Assembly: GCF_014204985.1 (NCBI RefSeq)
Contig: NZ_JACHMP010000001.1
Coordinates: 6,882,001-6,946,000, forward strand
Reading direction: 5' to 3'
Source of the DNA: Streptosporangium becharense
GTDB taxonomy: Bacteria > Actinomycetota > Actinomycetes > Streptosporangiales > Streptosporangiaceae
DNA: 64,000 nt
Shown here: positions 11,636 to 28,897 of the stretch, one piece after another
Numbering within the stretch: the stretch's first letter is position 1
Layout: every line of letters begins with the position of its first letter
Program-made: the position numbers and the translations under genes
The notes under the pieces: model-generated
What the model was told of the DNA's origin: nothing
Databases searched by the model: none
The model's input: the letters and a program-made list of their open reading frames with translations, nothing else

Positions 11636-14600
11636 GTGATGCCGACGATCCCCGAGACGCTCGCCGCTTCGGCCGCGGACAGAGGAGACGCCGTCGCGAT
11701 CGTGGATCAGGACGGACGGTCGCTGACGTACGCCGACTGGGACGACCGGGCCTCGCGGATCGCGCGGGCCCTGTCAAGGGGGGTGCTCTCCGACGGCCCG
11801 GTGGCCATGTGGTTCGACGACCGCGACTGGATCGACGCGGCCGTCGGGCTCCTGGGGATCATGCGCGCGGGCGGTCTCGCCCTGCCCCTGTCCAGCCGGT
11901 TCCATCCGCACGAGGTCGCCGCCATCGTCGAGAAGTACTCCGTCGCGCGGCTCATCGTGGGTCCGGGGCTCTCCCTCCCCGGGCGTGACGCCGGTGCGCG
12001 GATCCTGGAGTTCGCGAAGGCGCTGGAGGGGCCGCCGGGGGAGACGTCGGGGGAGAGGCCGTCCACCGGCCCGCAACGAGGATGCCTGGTCTACACGTCA
12101 GGCACGACGGGCTGGCCGCGCGCCGTCCGGTGCGACCACGAGAACCTCGCCTACTTCCTCGACTGGCGGCCCGGGTTCGGCAGCGAGGGCATCATCCACT
12201 CCTTCCCCTTCGACACCGCGGCGGGCGTGCTCTTCACGATCTTCGCACTGACCAGGGGGCCGGTCATCAGGAGCGCGAGGCTCGACGCGGGGGGATTCCT
12301 GCGGTCCCTGAACGCCCACCGCCCGCGTGATCTGATGCTGGCGCCGTCGCAGATGCGCGCGCTCATACGCGACCTGCCGGAGCTGGCCGGGACGGAGGCC
12401 GCGAAGGCGGTGAGGAGCGTCGTCATGACCGCCGCCCCCACCGAGGCGGCCCTGGTGGAATCCGTGCGCGCCACGTTCGGGAACGCGGTCGTCATCAACT
12501 CGTACTCCTCCAGCGAGGCGGGCATCGCGGCGACCAACCTGCACTATCCGCCGGCGGGGTCGCCTCCGGCCGGGCCGGTTCACCGGCCCGAGGACCATCC
12601 CGGCATGATCTGCGTCGGGTACCCAAACGAGGACACCGAGGTGGAGGTCCGCGACGAGACGGGCGGACGATGCCCGCCGAACGTCGTCGGCGACGTCTAC
12701 CTGCGAACCCCGCGCAGACCGCTGCGCGACTACTACGGCCCCGACGGCGCCGCGTCGGCGACGGTGTTCCGCGACGGCTGGGTCCGCATGGGCGACGTGG
12801 GTCTTCTCGACACCACGGGGGCCCTGCACCTGGCGGGGCGGTCGAGCGACCTCATCGACGTGGGCGGGCTCAACGTGTCCGCGTTGCAGATCGAGTCCGT
12901 GCTGAGAACCCATGAGGGCGTGGCCGACGTGGCCGTCTTCGGGGTCGCGGACGCGCGGTTCGGCGAGCGGATCGCGGCGGCGGTGGTCCCCCGGGGCATG
13001 GTCACCGGCAGGCAGCTCCACCGGTGGGTCGTGGACGGGCTGGGCGAGTTCAAAGCACCGGCCCACTACGCCTTCGTGCCGGAGATCCCGCTCAACTCGA
13101 TGGGGAAGGTGCTCAAACGCACGCTCCGCGAGCGGTTCGAGGCCATCCTGGAGGCGTCCCCCGACCGGGTGGCCTCCGTGCCGGAGACCGTGTCCGGCGC
13201 TTGTGACGGCGCGGTGGCCGACCTCTGCGCTCAGGTCCTCGGCCTCGACCGGGTCGATCCCGGTGACGACTTCTTCACGCTGGGCGGCAACTCACTCACG
13301 GCGACCCGGCTCGTCCAGCGATTCCGTCACGCGTTCGGGGTCGACGTGCCGATGAAGGCGCTGTTCGAGTCACCCCGGGTGGCCGACGTGGCGGCGCTGC
13401 TGCGCTCCCTCCAGCGGGGTGGCACGGAACCGGCCGTGGTCGACCCGGTGACGGCCGATCCGGCGGCGGACGCGGCTCCGCTGGAAGGGCTCCTCGGCTT
13501 CGTCGCGCCGGAGGATCCCAGTGACCCGCGAGAGGTGCTGCTGACCGGCGGCACGGGTTTCCTCGGTGCGTTCCTGCTCGGGGAACTGCTGACCTCCACC
13601 CGAGCCGACGTCCGCTGTCTGGTGCGGGCGGAGGACGACGCCGGGGCATTCACGCGGTTGCGGGAGGCGCTGCGCAGGTACGGCCTGTGGCAGGACGGGT
13701 TCGAGCGCAGGATCGTCCCGGTACGCGGAGATCTGGCCGACGCCGGGCTGGGACTGACCGAGGAGGACCGGGCCGACCTGGCCCGCCGCGTCGACGCGAT
13801 CTATCACTGCGGCGCCGTCGTCAACGTCGTCCATCCGTACTCACGCCTCAGGGCGGCCAACGTCGACGGGACGAAAGAGATCATCCGGCTGGCGGACATG
13901 TCAGGACGCGCTCCGCTGCACTACGTGTCCACCATAGGGGTGTTCGAAGGGGCCGGGCGACCGGGCCGGCCGATAGGGGAACTGGACCCGCCGGGCCCTC
14001 CCTCCGCCATCCGGCAGGGATACGCCCAGAGCAAGTGGGTGGGCGAGCGCCTGGTCGCCCACGCGGCCGAGGCGGGGATCCCTGTCACGATCCATCGGCC
14101 CAGCCGGATCGTCGGCCACTCCGCGACCGGTGCCTGCCAGACGGACGACTATCTGTGGCGGGTGATGAAGGCGTGCGTCCAGCTCGGCAGCTGCCCGGCG
14201 GATCTGCGGTCACCGGTGGACCTGGTGCCCGTGGACTACGTGAGCGCGGCGATCGTCGCCCTGACGACGCGTCCGGGGGCGATCGGCCGGACCTTCCATC
14301 TGGTGGGTGCGGAACCCGTGGAGATGAACCGGCTGCTGGAGTACGTCCGTGACTTCGGCTACGACCTGGCCGGTGTCACCTCCGCGGAGTGGCTCGACGG
14401 CGTCCGGGCGGATCCGGGCAACGCCGCCTACCCGCTGCTCAGCGTCCTGCACCCGGGGGAGACCGGTGAGCTGGGAGCGGGTTCGCTCACGGGAGGACCC
14501 GGCGTGACGTTCACGGCGGACGCCACCCTCGCCGGTCTCGGTGGGACGCGGATCCGTCCGGTGAGGATCGACTCGAAGATCTTCGGTCGTTACCTGTCCT

Positions 14601-14659
14601 ACTTCGTGGACATCGGTTTCCTTCCTCCCCCGGGAAAGGACGCCGGCCGGCAGGGGTGA
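11636..14659 (+). CDS. Adenylation-carrier-thioester reductase (CAR/NRPS-like)
   Basis: Three-domain enzyme of about 1007 residues. The adenylation domain (about 1-510) has the P-loop LVYTSGTTGWPRAV, YSSSEAGI, GDVGLLDTTGALHLAGRSSD and the A10-type lysine in PLNSMGKVLKR. A carrier domain (about 520-600) has the attachment serine in DDFFTLGGNSLTATRL. A C-terminal NAD(P)H reductase (from about 630) has VLLTGGTGFLGAFLLGELL and the Tyr-Lys pair in QGYAQSKWVGERL. Such enzymes activate a carboxylic acid, hold it as thioester and release it by reduction, usually as an aldehyde. The start is GTG 11636 or ATG 11639, two bases after the BioF-type gene. It is the last gene of the four-gene operon. The substrate may be a dicarboxylic or amino acid, which is inference. 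Confidence 0.9.
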   Translation: MMPTIPETLAASAADRGDAVAIVDQDGRSLTYADWDDRASRIARALSRGVLSDGPVAMWFDDRDWIDAAVGLLGIMRAGGLALPLSSRFHPHEVAAIVEKYSVARLIVGPGLSLPGRDAGARILEFAKALEGPPGETSGERPSTGPQRGCLVYTSGTTGWPRAVRCDHENLAYFLDWRPGFGSEGIIHSFPFDTAAGVLFTIFALTRGPVIRSARLDAGGFLRSLNAHRPRDLMLAPSQMRALIRDLPELAGTEAAKAVRSVVMTAAPTEAALVESVRATFGNAVVINSYSSSEAGIAATNLHYPPAGSPPAGPVHRPEDHPGMICVGYPNEDTEVEVRDETGGRCPPNVVGDVYLRTPRRPLRDYYGPDGAASATVFRDGWVRMGDVGLLDTTGALHLAGRSSDLIDVGGLNVSALQIESVLRTHEGVADVAVFGVADARFGERIAAAVVPRGMVTGRQLHRWVVDGLGEFKAPAHYAFVPEIPLNSMGKVLKRTLRERFEAILEASPDRVASVPETVSGACDGAVADLCAQVLGLDRVDPGDDFFTLGGNSLTATRLVQRFRHAFGVDVPMKALFESPRVADVAALLRSLQRGGTEPAVVDPVTADPAADAAPLEGLLGFVAPEDPSDPREVLLTGGTGFLGAFLLGELLTSTRADVRCLVRAEDDAGAFTRLREALRRYGLWQDGFERRIVPVRGDLADAGLGLTEEDRADLARRVDAIYHCGAVVNVVHPYSRLRAANVDGTKEIIRLADMSGRAPLHYVSTIGVFEGAGRPGRPIGELDPPGPPSAIRQGYAQSKWVGERLVAHAAEAGIPVTIHRPSRIVGHSATGACQTDDYLWRVMKACVQLGSCPADLRSPVDLVPVDYVSAAIVALTTRPGAIGRTFHLVGAEPVEMNRLLEYVRDFGYDLAGVTSAEWLDGVRADPGNAAYPLLSVLHPGETGELGAGSLTGGPGVTFTADATLAGLGGTRIRPVRIDSKIFGRYLSYFVDIGFLPPPGKDAGRQG

Positions 14660-14677
14660 CGGCGGCGCGCCGATGTG

Positions 14678-14700
14678 CCCCGCCTCACCGTGAGGCGGGG
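14678..14700. terminator. Bidirectional hairpin between reductase gene and P450
   Basis: A perfect dyad with 11-bp arms around a single central base (CCCCGCCTCAC / GTGAGGCGGGG) lies between two convergent genes, 18 bp after the reductase stop. There is no T-run on either side. Strong T-less hairpins are common at operon ends in high-G+C actinomycetes, so I read it as a shared terminator. Confidence 0.7.
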
Positions 14701-14756
14701 TGTCCCGGGCCCCGCGGCGGTGGGTTTCCGGATCGCCGGATCGGACGGAGAGCCGA

Positions 14757-16004
14757 TCACGTCGTGGTCACCACGACCCGGGCGGGGGACCGGAACGACA
14801 GCAGACCGCTGAGCATGGGCGGGGGGCCCGGCTCCGCCAGCCGGAGACCGGGCAGCCGGGCCGAGGTCATCCGGAGCATGATCTCGGCTTCCGTCCGGGC
14901 CAGTTCGGCACCCGGGCATCGATGGCGGCCGAGCCCGAAGGCCAGATGCTGGCGCTGGTTGACGCGGTGTGGGCAGATCTCCTCGGGAGACGGGAAGACG
15001 TCCGGGTCCGATCCGGTGCCGGAGAGCATGAGGAGCACCTTCGCCCCCGACGGCAGCTCGACGTCGCCGACACGGACGGGGCGGCCGGTGACACGGCGCC
15101 AGGTGGTGATCGGCGGGTCCCGCCGGATCACTTCCTCCACCCACGGCGCGATGAGCTGGGGTTCCCGGCGGAAAGACGCCCACCGTCCCTCTTCGGCCAG
15201 AGCCCGGTACAACATGGTGGCGAACATCTGCCCGGTGGTCACCTGCCCGGCGATGATCATGAAATAGCACAGGGCCACTTCCTCCGCCGTGTCGAGCGGC
15301 CTGTCACCGGGGCAGCGGTGAGCGCTGAGAGCGCGGAAGAAGCCGGACTCCTCCCGGTCGGAGCGCCGGACGAGCCCGGTCAGCCACCGGTAGAAGTCCG
15401 CCGCCTCCCGGGCGAGGCCCTCCTGCCGCTCGGGCCTCGGGTGCCCCCAGAACAGTTCGAGCGATGCCTGCGTCCACCGCGCCAGGGTGGCCGTGTCGAC
15501 GTCCACCAGGCCGTCCAGATCGAGCATCTCGAACATGACCTGGTAGGGCACGTCACGCGCGTAACCGCCGACCAGCTCATGGCCGCCGGTGGCCGCGAGT
15601 TCCGTCTCGACACGCTCCAGATTCCGGGCGACGACGCGTTCGATCACCGGCCTGTTCGCCCGCACAGCCGACGTGCTGAACATCCGGGTGATCAGACCTC
15701 GTAGGCCGGAATGGCTTTCCGTGCCGTTGTTGGCCAGCGTCGGCGGAAGTCTGAAACCCGCGCGGGCGAGAACGCGCAGGGCCGGCGTCCCCAGGTCGAC
15801 GAGAACGTCCAGCGCGTTGTCCGGCCGGAATGTGTCCGGATCCAGCAACGCCGCCTTCACGTCGGTGTAGCCGCTGAGCAGCCACAAGCCGGTGCGCGGG
15901 TCGTGGTGGACCGGGGCGTGCGCACGGAGGGCCGCCATTGTGGGGTAGGGATCGACGGCGAAGTCATGACCGAAGACGTCAAACTCTTCGAGGTACGCAG
16001 TCAT
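14757..16004 (-). CDS. Cytochrome P450 with atypical I-helix
   Basis: Soluble bacterial P450 of 415 residues. The haem-thiolate loop is intact (LAFGLGRHRCPGAELAR), as is the ExxR of helix K (EEVIRRDPP, then TTWRRV). The I-helix oxygen-activation motif, normally AG-x-(D/E)-T-T, reads IIAGQVTTGQM: Val replaces the acidic residue. Such substitutions usually signal altered proton delivery or non-hydroxylating chemistry. It is convergent with the BioF/reductase operon and last in the biotin-like block. The known P450 of biotin synthesis, BioI, cleaves acyl-ACP to pimeloyl-ACP. A similar chain-cleaving or tailoring role is possible but unproven. No redox partner gene is nearby. Confidence 0.9.
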   Translation of the reverse strand: MTAYLEEFDVFGHDFAVDPYPTMAALRAHAPVHHDPRTGLWLLSGYTDVKAALLDPDTFRPDNALDVLVDLGTPALRVLARAGFRLPPTLANNGTESHSGLRGLITRMFSTSAVRANRPVIERVVARNLERVETELAATGGHELVGGYARDVPYQVMFEMLDLDGLVDVDTATLARWTQASLELFWGHPRPERQEGLAREAADFYRWLTGLVRRSDREESGFFRALSAHRCPGDRPLDTAEEVALCYFMIIAGQVTTGQMFATMLYRALAEEGRWASFRREPQLIAPWVEEVIRRDPPITTWRRVTGRPVRVGDVELPSGAKVLLMLSGTGSDPDVFPSPEEICPHRVNQRQHLAFGLGRHRCPGAELARTEAEIMLRMTSARLPGLRLAEPGPPPMLSGLLSFRSPARVVVTTT

Positions 16005-23211: not shown

Positions 23212-23352
23212 ATGGGCGAGCCTGTGCCCGGGGCGGTGGAGCTGAGCGACGTCAGCGTCCGGGTGGTGGGCCGGACCCCGCTGGGCGATATCGACTGGCG
23301 GGTGGGGTACGGCGAGCACTGGGTGGTGCTCGGCCCGAACGGGGCCGGGAAG
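23212..23352 (+). pseudogene. 5' fragment of a disrupted ABC transporter ATPase gene
   Basis: Starting at an ATG with a strong GGAGGGGG site, the frame encodes a normal ABC ATPase N-terminus: VELSDVSVRVVGRTPLGDID, WRVGYGEHWVVLGPNGAGK. Immediately after the Walker A lysine codon (23350-23352) homology stops, and the frame ends eight codons downstream. The matching 3' part begins at 26067 in the same orientation. The codons from Walker A to Walker B, about 110 residues, are missing from both pieces. The product cannot be functional. Confidence 0.88.
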
Positions 23353-23415
23353 CCCGATGCTGGATTGTGACACTTCTGGGTCTCTGCCATGCGGGCACCC
23401 GCACATCTTTCCCCT

Positions 23416-23573
23416 GGCCTGCTCATCCCGTCTGCCGTCGTCCCGCCCGTAGGGGTGGCGGGTCGGTGCCAGGGCGCCGAAGTGGAGCGCCCTACCGGAC
23501 GACCGACTTTGGTGCCCTGGTGCCGGTCTGCTACGGCTTGTTCCGGGACGACGGCAGACGGGATGAGCAGGCC
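23416..23573 (+). ncRNA. Candidate structured RNA: 158-nt near-continuous hairpin
   Basis: Outer arms 23416-23445 and 23544-23573 are perfect 30-bp inverted repeats. After a small internal loop, 23455-23483 pairs with 23506-23534 as 29 consecutive base pairs. Of these, 21 are Watson-Crick and 8 are G-U on the plus strand, with no A-C mismatch. The apical loop is 22 nt (23484-23505). Transitions kept only as G-U indicate constraint on an RNA read from the plus strand rather than on the DNA. No promoter was identified. A decaying inverted-repeat element is the main alternative. Confidence 0.45.
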
Positions 23574-23912
23574 CTACCTCAGCCACCATCAAACCTGCGC
23601 GCTGCACACTTTGCCCTACCCCGGAGCCGGAATGCCCCCGCCGGAGGCGTCTTCTCTAACCGAGTCTTCCCGCAGTAATGATCAAGACGGATGGTCACTC
23701 TTGCGTAGCGTTCATCTCGATCTCTATAAGAACAATTCGGCAATGCGCTGCGGTCGCCATTGCGTCAAGCATCAAACGAGATCGGACACTTGGCTGCGTC
23801 CGCGCGTCAGCGTTCGGGCTTGCATGCTTGGACGATCGCCGAGTGCAAGCCGCCGGTTGCGGCATGAGTGCGTGTGACCTGGTATTCGCCGACAGTGCTG
23901 ACTACACCGTGA

Positions 23913-25442
23913 TCATGCGGGCCGATCATTGACCGTGGAGCAAGTCACGTTCGCGCTCTCACGCTTGCCGTTCTGGTTCTTGAGCACCCATATTCCCTTT
24001 TCATTGAAGCGGATCCATGCCTCGCCATCGTTAAGTCCCCGTATCCAGCCGGCGGACACACCACCGAATATCCGCACCCCCTTGTCCTTTTCCAGGAACT
24101 TGATGTACCCCTTACCTTCGCCTGCCCCCTGGACCTGGTTGGTGATCACGCTGTTCACGTCGGCCTTGTCAGCAAACACGATTCCCCAGTCCTGTCCGGC
24201 CCCCTTGCGCACGTTCAGGCCTTCCTTGGGGAAGCTGATCCATCCGTCGTCGGTGCTTCTGCCTTGTACCCATTCGGTGTTGATGCCGTTGAGGTCGGCT
24301 TTGTCGGCGTGCACGGTTCCCCATGCTCCGCTTCCTTGGCGGATGTTCAGCCCGTCCTTGGGGAAGGTGATCTTTCCGTCGTCGGTGCTTCTGCCTTGTA
24401 CCCATTCGGTGTTGATGCCGTTGAGGTCGGCTTTGTCGGCGTGCACGGTTCCCCATGCTCCGCTTCCTTGGCGGATGTTCAGCCCGTCCTTGGGGAAGGT
24501 GATCTTTCCGTCGTCGGTGCTTCTGCCCTGCACCCATTCGGTGTTCACACCATTGAGATCAGCCCTGTCGGCCGTCACAGCCCCCTGCCCGCCGGAGTCG
24601 TTGGAGATCTCCACCCCTGCGCCGGTGAAGGTGACGCGCCCCTTGTTCGCCGTCCCCTGGACCCAGGGGGTGTCGATGCCAGTCGTGGCGGTGAGTGTTT
24701 CCAGGACGGGATAGCGCACCTGAACGGTCGTGGTGAGGAAGTGCTGCTTCTGGGTGCTGGGGTCGGTGGCGACCAAGATGTAGGTGGTGGCCCGCTTCGG
24801 GGCGTCGGCCGGCGACCAGGTACGCGTGCCCGGGGTGATGGCCGCCTGCCCGCCGGGGAACCGGATCTCATAGGTGAAGTCGGCGGAGCCCTCCCAGCTC
24901 AGCGTGAGGTCTTCTCCGGCGTCCACCATCGCCTTGTCCGGGCGGAAGTCGCGCGGCGCGGGAATCTCCTTGGGAGCGGTCTTCACCAGCGCCACTGATG
25001 TGTAGCGGGTGTGCTCCCCGTCATCGTCTTCGGTCTTCTCCCTCACCGTCAGCACGGTCGGCCCGGCGGTGGATGCGACGGTGAAGTTCTCCAGCGTCAG
25101 CACCATGTAGTCGCCGAATCTGAAAGAGGCTGTGCCACCGGTCTGGGGAGTGACTTTAAAGACGTTGGTTCCCTGCTGCCGCTCGATATTCACTTCCCGG
25201 GTTCTCTCCTGGGCTCCCCACTGGTTCTCGGTGTACGTGCCCTTCATCTCCGGGATGTTCGGGGTGAGGTCGCCGGCGCCGTCGCCGACGGGTACCTTCA
25301 CCTCGATCGTGGACCAGTCTGTCCTCCTTGCGGTGTTGGTGACGACCAGGTGCACCGTTCCTATGGACTTGGACTGCCTCCCGGCCGCTGACGCCTCCAG
25401 GGGCGCTGGGTCAGTGAGGATGGTGTAGGTCAGCGCGGTCAC
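23913..25442 (-). CDS. Repeat-containing protein with 44-residue WVQG units, unknown function
   Basis: The 509-residue protein is not assigned to a family. Residues 1-260 look like two beta-rich, Ig-like modules, including the segments DLTLSWEGSADFTYEIRFPG and TTYILVATDPSTQKQHF. From about 265 a unit of 44 residues repeats five to six times with the core EWVQGRSTDDGKITFPKDGL and a WG-x-V-x-ADKAD end. This suggests a beta-solenoid or fibre-like C-terminal half. The start is a GTG at 25442 with GGAGGAG 8 bp upstream. There is no signal peptide. Codon use is less G+C-biased than in neighbours. It lies inside the foreign segment. A receptor-binding or structural role is speculation. Confidence 0.7.
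   Translation of the reverse strand: MTALTYTILTDPAPLEASAAGRQSKSIGTVHLVVTNTARRTDWSTIEVKVPVGDGAGDLTPNIPEMKGTYTENQWGAQERTREVNIERQQGTNVFKVTPQTGGTASFRFGDYMVLTLENFTVASTAGPTVLTVREKTEDDDGEHTRYTSVALVKTAPKEIPAPRDFRPDKAMVDAGEDLTLSWEGSADFTYEIRFPGGQAAITPGTRTWSPADAPKRATTYILVATDPSTQKQHFLTTTVQVRYPVLETLTATTGIDTPWVQGTANKGRVTFTGAGVEISNDSGGQGAVTADRADLNGVNTEWVQGRSTDDGKITFPKDGLNIRQGSGAWGTVHADKADLNGINTEWVQGRSTDDGKITFPKDGLNIRQGSGAWGTVHADKADLNGINTEWVQGRSTDDGWISFPKEGLNVRKGAGQDWGIVFADKADVNSVITNQVQGAGEGKGYIKFLEKDKGVRIFGGVSAGWIRGLNDGEAWIRFNEKGIWVLKNQNGKRESANVTCSTVNDRPA
24129..24656. repeat. 132-bp in-frame tandem repeats within the repeat-protein gene
   Basis: Four consecutive 132-bp units encode the 44-residue repeats. 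The two central units, 24261-24392 and 24393-24524, are almost identical at the DNA level, while the flanking ones (24129-24260, 24525-24656) are diverged. The near-identity suggests recent duplication or gene conversion, so copy number may vary between strains and the region is prone to assembly collapse. Confidence 0.85.
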
Positions 25443-26066
25443 GGTCGCGACTCCTCCTTTGAGGACGGTGCAGGCTGTTGGCCTGCCAGTACGAGAGGAC
25501 TGGGCCGGGGAAGGACAGGTGGCGACATGGGGGGACGCGTCCGGGCCCCGCCGCCTGCGGATGCGCCGCAGAAGATCACTCCTAGATCCAAACGCCAGTT
25601 TTGGAGCGTGACAAGAGCATTCAAGGAGGTGGTGGCAGCAGTGCAGATCAGAGGCTTTACGGATACCCTTATATTGCGTTTCAGTCGCTTTGAATATCTA
25701 TAGGCCGGTTTGTGGGCGGTCCTTATTTCCGATTAAGGATGTGCCTAGTAAATGCTTAATTTGAGAGGCTTTGCGGAGCTTTCGGCCGTTGGTCGGGTAC
25801 AAGTTATCCGGAACGGCGAAAGGGGTCATTGTTGATTTTGCAGGGTCCGATCCCTGTTTCTCATCATCTGGTGTTACCCCACGACTGCTATGTCGTGGGT
25901 GAAGTATCCCAAGTCCTCGATTTCGAGGCGAGTATCAAGGAAAGCCGGTTTCGGCTCGCGACAAGGCGACAGGCGAGTTGATGTGGGCGGTCCCCGTGAT
26001 GGACGGTGACCCTTCCCTCGTAGCCGCCACGAAGTCGATCACCGTTAAGGTGATCTCTCCTGTTGA
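25443..26066. other. Gene-poor, A+T-richer right end of the insert with a hairpin series
   Basis: About 620 bp with no supported gene. Four dyads occur near the right edge: CCCACGAC-N6-GTCGTGGG (25878-25899), CCTCGA-TT-TCGAGG (25915-25928), AGCCG-GTTT-CGGCT (25943-25956) and GATCACC-GTTAA-GGTGATC (26037-26055). The last ends 11 bp before the junction with the ATPase fragment. Subterminal hairpins are known for IS200/IS605- and IS91-type elements, but no such transposase is present. Confidence 0.5.
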
Positions 26067-26354
26067 GACGAGCCGTTCGCCGGGCTCGACCTGCCCGCCC
26101 GGGAGGATCTGATCAGCGCGGTGGAGGGTCTCGCGGAGAGCCGCCCGGCGCTGACCAAGATCACCGTGACCCACCACCTGGAGGAGGTCCCGGCCATCAC
26201 GACCCACGCTCTGCTGATGCGCGACGCGCGGATCCAGGCGGGCGGCCCGGTGGCGGAGATCCTCACCGCGGAGAACCTGTCGGAGTGCTTCGGGCGCCCG
26301 CTGCGCGTCGACCACCTCGACGGCCGCTGGTCCGCGCGGGCGCTGCGGGTCTGA
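26067..26354 (+). pseudogene. 3' fragment of the disrupted ABC transporter ATPase gene
   Basis: The frame resumes exactly at Walker B (DEPFAGLDLPAREDLISAVE) and continues through the H-loop (ITVTHHLEEVPAITTHALLM) to a normal C-terminus and TGA at 26352-26354. In-frame sequence directly before gac at 26067 is a stop (tga) and unrelated. With the 5' fragment at 23212-23352 it accounts for both ends of one ATPase of roughly 250 residues whose middle is absent. Confidence 0.88.
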
Positions 26355-26441
26355 CGCCTCGACGGCCGCTGGTCCGCGCGGGCGCTGCGGGTCTGACGCC
26401 TCGACGGCCGCTGGTCCGCGCGGGCGCTGTGGGCCTGACGC
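26316..26441. repeat. Three tandem 42-bp copies of the ATPase gene's 3' end
   Basis: Units begin at 26316, 26358 and 26400. The first contains the last codons (LDGRWSARALRV) and stop of the ATPase remnant, the second is identical, and the third differs at two visible bases. The duplication of a gene terminus next to the disruption suggests local slippage or repair. A shorter 28-bp near-repeat (ggtcctttccgtgcccgcgc core) follows at about 26513 and 26573. Confidence 0.85.
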
Positions 26442-26597
26442 CTCCGCGATGTCCGGCGGGGGCCGCCGAGCGCACCGGCCCGCGGGGAGAGCGTCCTCGT
26501 GGGCCGGGGCCGGTCCTTTCCGTGCCCGCGCCGGTGTCGATCCAGGTGGCTGGCCCGGTTGGACAGGTTCGCGGTCCTTTCCGTGCCCGCGCCGGGG

Positions 26598-28709: not shown

Positions 28710-28775
28710 ATAGGGAGGAGACGGGTGCAAGGGCTCGTCCGCCCCGGATTCCCCGATGCTCACCGCCCGCCCAGG

Positions 28776-28865
28776 GTCTCGGGTGGGGGTCTCGGGTGGG
28801 GGTCTCGGGTGGGGGTCTCGGGTGGGGGTCTCGGGTGGGGGTCTCGGGTGGGGGTCTCGGGTGGG
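28776..28865. repeat. 13-bp G-rich tandem repeat, seven copies
   Basis: The unit GTCTCGGGTGGGG recurs seven times head to tail, the last copy partial, with no variation among complete units. The plus strand therefore carries regularly spaced runs of three and four to five G, a good setting for G-quadruplex formation. It lies between the padR promoter and a very small ORF. Open frames through it are artefacts of the repeat. Confidence 0.9.
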
Positions 28866-28897
28866 CGCCCGCGGTCTTCGACCGGCGGGCGCCCCCC

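Follow-up and report, generated by a model that had tools for sequence, protein, structure and literature searches.

A conserved hairpin of RepSA-type AICEs as a candidate lagging-strand origin of replication

The DNA analyzed here, a stretch of 64,000 nucleotides from Streptosporangium becharense which we refer to as the window, contains a long hairpin between the two parts of an interrupted ABC ATPase-like gene (Table 1). The 5′ part of the gene breaks off at its Walker A motif. It is followed on the same strand by the hairpin, a conserved 3′ motif, a decayed nick-like site and a fragment of a regulator gene, with one open reading frame (ORF) on the opposite strand, and finally by the 3′ part of the gene. 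The 52-aa 5′ piece matched no Pfam family, nor did the 95-aa 3′ piece, so that the name ABC rests on motifs read by eye. Two repeats were seen nearby: 42-nt spaced repeats at the end of the 3′ part (26286-26444) and a 13-nt tandem repeat with the unit GGGTCTCGGGTGG at 28761-28878.

Table 1. Features of the hairpin locus in the window; the last row belongs to the related element L082.
Feature	Position	Strand	Basis or remark
ABC-transporter ATPase, 5′ part (attL side)	23212..23352	+	cut at Walker A VVLGPNGAGK; motif read by eye
Hairpin, proposed lagging-strand origin (sso)	23416..23573	+	fold, family alignment A1, covariation
Hairpin, outer arms	23416-23445 / 23544-23573	+	30/30 Watson-Crick pairs
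Hairpin, inner arms	23455-23483 / 23506-23534	+	29/29 paired
Hairpin, conserved tip	23484-23505	+	family alignment A1
Conserved 3′ motif, family form CATCCCGGAGCCGGAG.GCCCCCGCCGGAGGC	23613..23648	+	alignment A1
Decayed nick-like site CTCGATCTCTATAAGAACAATTCGGCAAT	23716..23744	+	CTTGAT in relatives
509-aa ORF between hairpin and regulator fragment	23913..25442	-	132-nt direct repeats
'reg' regulator fragment	25706..26067	+	frame broken and not restored by reading in three frames; upstream of tra in relatives
ABC ATPase-like, 3′ part, DEPFAGLDLPARED to stop	26067..26354	+	far side of insertion; frame reading
Large serine integrase of L082	7069-8610	+	AICE inserted at Walker A region of ABC ATPase-like gene

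The same genome carries a complete element, L082, in an ABC ATPase-like gene. It too sits after LGPNGAGK, so that both insertions follow GPNGAGK, and GKTTTIEILEGF resumes past its integrase at 12458. The hairpin had been placed at the left end of a foreign segment in an initial annotation of the locus, and the comparison bears this out: window positions 23382-23719 are 93% identical to the left end of L082. Further to the right, 25706-26070 is 80% identical to the regulator region of L082 (5683-6048). The hairpin of the window differs from the L042/L082 copy at five positions, four of which give G-T in the window, with the fifth in the tip, and the nick motif of the window reads CTCGAT. Only its left end, the hairpin, the trace of a double-strand origin (dso) and the regulator fragment are left of the element; we found no tra, rep or int match in it, and the ABC gene lacks its middle part. 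The 509-aa ORF had no Pfam or NCBIfam family (E≤0.001) and is perhaps cargo; its 132-nt repeats match the reference copy at 93% and 72%. Judged by these sequence comparisons, the window copy is the remnant of an actinomycete integrative and conjugative element (AICE) inserted in a putative ABC ATPase gene, and it is probably not active.

The initial annotation had further described perfect outer arms of 30 bp and an inner stem of 29 pairs, eight of them not Watson-Crick and all eight G-U on the plus strand. This description is exact: all pairs of the outer arms are Watson-Crick, and the inner stem has 21 Watson-Crick pairs and 8 G-T (G-U) pairs, with no A-C and no other mismatches. Chance does not account for the fold. 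As plus-strand RNA the hairpin folds with −134.7 kcal/mol (z −11.6; none of 200 shuffles was as good), the minus-strand RNA more poorly with −116.2 (191 nt), and as DNA the values are −69.8 for the plus and −64.3 for the minus strand. All 11 matches of a search for 20-mer inverted repeats up to 400 bp apart in the 64-kb window were to this hairpin, and the window has 2 matches to the 29-nt arm, with 0 expected. At the gathering score Rfam gave no match in the window, and at E≤1 only one microRNA model, which scored 20 bits where the gathering score is 58. Eight of eight G-U pairs in one copy is a weak sign test (two-sided p ∼0.008), and it is the family-wide test that bears the claim.

The source genome has four copies of the hairpin, and a search in relatives found matches in 45 of 149 genomes. 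With R1, a covariance model of the inner stem built from 43 sequences, 46 of the 394 genomes sampled in the class gave matches (E≤0.001), part of which are weak. A pattern scan of named genomes returned at least 119 hairpin stretches; genera among the matches listed are Streptomyces, Micromonospora, Actinoplanes, Plantactinospora, Dactylosporangium, Asanoa, Planomonospora, Actinomadura and Streptosporangium. The hairpin is also present on pMR2 itself, and phage records gave no match to the window hairpin or its Streptomyces form. Mapped copies lie in AICEs or their remnants, as the proposed tie to mobile elements had implied, and the hairpin is a family of mobile-element copies, not a lone RNA gene.

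Of the 46 copies collected, 43 form the alignment A1; L072 and L074, which have lost the 5′ arm, and L078, in which the inner stem is deleted, were left out. L155 was a blastn match but reached only 12.4 bits with R1 (E 4.1) and was not counted as a copy. Hairpins are 146 to 154 nt long, with lengths that do not change in steps of three, and no single plus-strand frame is open in all 43 copies (27 at most), with some open frame in 40 of the 43, in GC-rich DNA.

Several places stand somewhat apart. In L134 (G123:C1 88-108 kb), three weaker R1 matches, which may represent another hairpin family, lie within 15 kb of each other in a genome without a RepSA match. L091/L047 (G004:C1 ∼4.29 Mb), where the hairpin lies near a tRNA-Ala gene and 76-bp direct repeats spaced 3.4 kb from each other, is possibly a mini-element; the stretch has neither a rep nor an int match. 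L152 and L154 are located on Streptomyces plasmids, where tblastn found no rep or int match in ∼12-14 kb on each side of the hairpin; some plasmid records have several hairpin places. On a plasmid of Streptomyces sp. JCM17656 (L153, 12041-15513), a RepSA-like gene and an int match come after the hairpin, on its strand, which adds one case to the agreement in strand between rep and hairpin described below. This RepSA-like gene is in two pieces in different frames, and rep and int are absent from the gene table of the plasmid.

Complete elements are composed, in this order, of att repeat, hairpin, cargo, (regulator), FtsK-like Tra, Rep, Xis, Int and att repeat. Five of them (L040, L085, L086, L089, L090) contain int, xis, a rolling-circle (RCR) rep and an FtsK-like tra, by which they qualify as AICEs, and are bounded by direct repeats of 42-66 bp that overlap a tRNA gene. 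Across elements, the hairpin lies 0.2 to 5.4 kb from attL.

Among the 46 mapped sources, 17 had no rep match in the stretch mapped, 28 have rep on the strand of the hairpin and one, L132, has it on the other strand, so that rep and hairpin agree in 28 of 29 sources with a rep match; the 28 share synteny and are thus not independent cases, and they were chosen from the best matches. In L132 the rep-bearing element is reversed and a tra fragment lies on the other side of the hairpin, as two abutting elements might give. By their Rep, 13 of the 28 elements are pMR2-type (found with the pMR2 Rep as seed) and 15 are pSAM2-type (seed from L135). Both kinds are Pfam RepSA proteins, PF20199 being found in L082, L040 and L135. 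Four pSAM2-type Reps pass the NCBIfam RepSA cut-off of 700 bits, against which two pMR2-type Reps have 25 and 32 bits; Pfam RepSA scores of two pMR2-type Reps are 342 and 357 bits.

At the level of genomes, 38 of the 46 hairpin-positive genomes have a RepSA match, compared to 114 of 348 others (Fisher p ∼1e-10). Among the eight without one, the hairpin match is strong in G300 and weaker in the rest. We listed 73 RepSA places in hairpin-positive genomes, these being the best-scoring genes, with pMR2-type ones absent among the rows listed. An R1 match lies within 20 kb of 17 of them, in 16 cases on the same strand (hand count); these 16 overlap with the 28 mapped elements, and the one on the odd strand is L132. 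The remaining 56 have no R1 match within 20 kb, and in the window's own family this holds for 30 of 32 listed places, with 2 having one. Most of the listed RepSA elements would therefore need another sso. Only one set of RepSA elements is marked by the hairpin.

To the covariance model the alignment A1 adds a record of compensatory change. Over 43 copies and 54 pairs, 95.7% of cells are paired and 34 of the 54 pairs have changed on both sides. The covariation score of 0.387 compares to 0.157 in shuffles (0 of 500 as high), and slid controls do not exceed 0.076. A decaying DNA inverted repeat would have its mismatches spread equally over A-C and G-U, but the 54 pairs of A1 contain 214 G-T, 32 A-C and 67 other mismatches. 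As the sequences are related, the cells of this and the following counts are not independent. The two commonest wobbles are both in the inner stem and occur in 37 and 32 of the 43 copies.

Separating the copies by the presence of rep sharpens the bias. Mismatches of the inner stem number 69 G-T, 0 A-C and 11 others in the 27 copies with rep (24 distinct); the 39 other copies (37 distinct), some of them near contig ends so that their element may be whole, have 116 G-T, 12 A-C and 25 others (Fisher p 0.009 for G-T to A-C). Without the two commonest wobbles, the ratios are 30:0 and 60:10 (Fisher p 0.03), and over the whole stem in A1 they are 56:2 in 13 copies with rep and 158:30 in 30 others (p 0.013). 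Both A-C cells of the copies with rep are in the outer stem, the absence of A-C being true of the inner stem only. In either group G-T is thus more frequent than A-C, which is less common in copies with rep. The inner-stem count includes 27 rather than 28 copies with rep, since L145 falls below the E≤1e-9 cut, and it omits L096:14167, which is the same place as L097:2167. These comparisons are further limited in that the alignment A3 was fitted to the model.

Compensatory changes and the large excess of G-T over A-C together give good support to selection on the single-stranded form of the plus strand of the hairpin. A repeat or MITE in decay, without function, would suit the 17 of 46 mapped sources that lack a rep match as well as the broken element of the window, but it is hardly credible given 69 G-T to 0 A-C in the inner stems of copies with rep, and given the compensatory changes. 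More generally, counts of G-T against A-C over homologues can show which strand of an inverted repeat is selected.

A second conserved feature accompanies the hairpin. When we scanned 12 pMR2-type elements against L085, only the hairpin (12 of 12) and one other block were widely aligned outside the profiled genes. In this block, CTTGAT and a conserved tail come after a GC-rich inverted repeat; blastn detected the block in 11 of the 12 elements, and in pMR2 it was recognized by eye. In pSAM2-type elements, the tail after CTTGAT differs from that of the pMR2-type. All 28 elements with rep on the hairpin strand carry a nick-like motif on that strand too, to the 3′ side of the hairpin, as CTTGAT in 26 and as CTTGAA in two (L138 and L150, at a like place by eye); relaxed patterns of the motif gave no match on the other strand of these 28 elements. 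Counted from the inner stem, eleven pSAM2-type elements have the motif at 251 to 394 nt and two more at ∼740 nt, and in the pMR2-type the distance is 0.46 to 5 kb. Origins of the phiX174 and pC194 type are nicked at CTTG^AT, and by analogy CTTGAT would be the site where RepSA nicks these elements.

Could the hairpin itself belong to the dso, as a recognition or nicking site of Rep? It occurs with RepSA in 28 mapped elements, and in eleven pSAM2-type elements it lies as near to the nick-like motif as given above. We dropped this explanation once the separate conserved CTTGAT block, 0.25 to 5 kb away, had appeared. The hairpin is, moreover, common to two RepSA types with different nick motifs, which leaves the dso explanation very unlikely.

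The constant partner of the hairpin is the rep strand with the nick-like motif, not any one gene or integrase. Its location and strand, a fold under selection, and its occurrence with two RepSA types and with both tyrosine and serine integrases characterize the family. That the strand stays the same with respect to both the initiator of rolling-circle replication and the nick-like motif fits a lagging-strand origin that acts as single-stranded DNA. We therefore favor, at a probability of roughly 0.68 and on the strength of sequence comparison, that the hairpin family is the lagging-strand origin, or single-strand origin (sso), of one set of RepSA-type AICEs. Single-stranded DNA rather than RNA would be what acts, with the hairpin priming minus-strand synthesis. 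In such a cycle, the element would circularize on excision, its plus strand would be cut by RepSA at CTTG^AT of the dso, and leading-strand synthesis would displace the old plus strand. On this displaced strand the hairpin would fold, and host enzymes would recognize the folded stem with its conserved tip and prime the minus strand. Being 5′ of the nick, the hairpin would be displaced last. Four features expected of an sso are seen in the family: copies with rep belong to rolling-circle replicons, they fold as a single strand, they would lie in a fixed orientation on the strand that is displaced, and they occur with more than one type of Rep; the window remnant, having lost rep, is no longer part of a rolling-circle replicon.

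The initial annotation had read the hairpin as a structured RNA transcribed from the plus strand. Its central point, selection on the single-stranded plus strand, has held up, but RNA is the weaker reading compared to single-stranded DNA. G-U in RNA and G-T in folded single-stranded DNA are identical in sequence, so that neither the bias nor the covariation can separate the two; both suit a regulatory or antisense RNA of the element equally well. The strand of the hairpin is also compatible with RNA, because rep, tra and most int genes share it, as do nearly all profiled genes of the elements. The distance to the next profiled genes varies, however, tra lying between 1.6 and 9.5 kb downstream, and it is the nick-like motif that stays with the hairpin; no Rfam family corresponds to the hairpin. 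We consider an RNA function unlikely.

A more specific RNA function would be that of the lambda sib hairpin, a retroregulator located across attP from int. As a target of RNase III past attP, such a hairpin would lead to the destruction of int mRNA in the excised circle. Five pMR2-type circles (L040, L085, L086, L089, L090) resemble this arrangement, since the inner stem is 361 to 642 nt 3′ of the int match on the same strand. Unlike in lambda, strand and distance of int are not kept across elements. The serine integrase of L082 is on the strand opposite to the hairpin and reads away from it, with the hairpin fold unbroken (0 broken pairs), and in ten pSAM2-type elements the hairpin is 1.3 to 5.4 kb from attL. 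The sib model, good in five elements, failed on L082 and on these attL distances, and we regard it as quite improbable. L142 has a serine-integrase match at 13988-15352, on the hairpin strand.

The conserved motif 3′ of the hairpin, which has the form CTACCCCGG in the window, contains repeated CCGGAG. Such repeats would suit a locus for transfer (clt) on which the FtsK-like Tra protein acts, and each of the 28 elements whose rep shares the hairpin strand has a Tra match. A clt acts as double-stranded DNA repeats, though, which would give neither a G-T bias on one strand nor compensatory changes, and this function for the hairpin appears extremely improbable.

The first part of the 3′ motif repeats the 5′ arm of the hairpin, and the 3′ arm could pair with either. 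In the second helix, 86.9% of cells are paired and 6 of 10 pairs show double changes. None of 500 shuffles reached the observed values for cells paired, cells changed or score; for pairs 6 of 500 did so, and for pair types 40 of 500. As this signal comes in part from the pairing of the 3′ arm with the 5′ arm, a switch is only a possibility. A wider proposal, that of a new sso class in many actinomycete genera, shared across different dso types and switching between two mutually exclusive folds, is unlikely. If it were true, the switch could delay priming until displacement reaches the end of the circle.

For the replicons concerned, the accessible sections of one study (PMC3218068) describe rolling-circle replication by RepSA and two subfamilies, RepSA-MR2 and RepSA-SAM2, with a different dso predicted for each. 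We find the hairpin in both pMR2- and pSAM2-type AICEs; in its accessible text, the same study treats dso and Rep, and no sso. It also reports that transfer of pSAM2, the model AICE, needs replication, and that AICEs are held to transfer double-stranded DNA, so that the step from single- to double-stranded DNA considered here concerns replication. As of 2015, virtually nothing was known, according to the available part of PMC4595007, on how transferred ICE single-stranded DNA becomes double-stranded, and sso-like regions in other ICEs were found by similarity to origins of Firmicute plasmids. Among titles and the beginnings of abstracts, with the subscription literature mostly out of reach, we found no paper on an sso of an AICE. 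AICEs carry genes among actinomycetes, and the hairpin provides a candidate site with a predicted strand and a partner motif.

A known sso exists in Streptomyces, in the sti/sso of the rolling-circle plasmid pIJ101 (PMC4170104). R1 found nothing significant in pIJ101, with a best match of 11.1 bits (E 7.5). The CS-6 hexamer of the ssoA class, which we take to be TAGCG[TA], occurs between 60 nt before and 260 nt after the inner stem in only 2 of the 28 elements (L082, L087). The accessible parts of the literature describe an sso as working only on the leading strand, with a length of ∼160 nt for ssoA and a flexible position (PMC5703833), and assign Rep no part in its function (PMC5714925). The Firmicute origins ssoA, ssoU, ssoT, ssoW and ssoL as well as sso1 of ICEBs1 resemble the hairpin in their length of ∼160 nt, in the extended fold of the displaced strand, and in having a fixed orientation with a flexible place relative to rep (PMC5703833, PMC4595007). 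Unlike these, the hairpin belongs to actinomycete AICEs and forms one long two-part stem with a conserved tip, and by these sequence features it likely represents a new class of sso.
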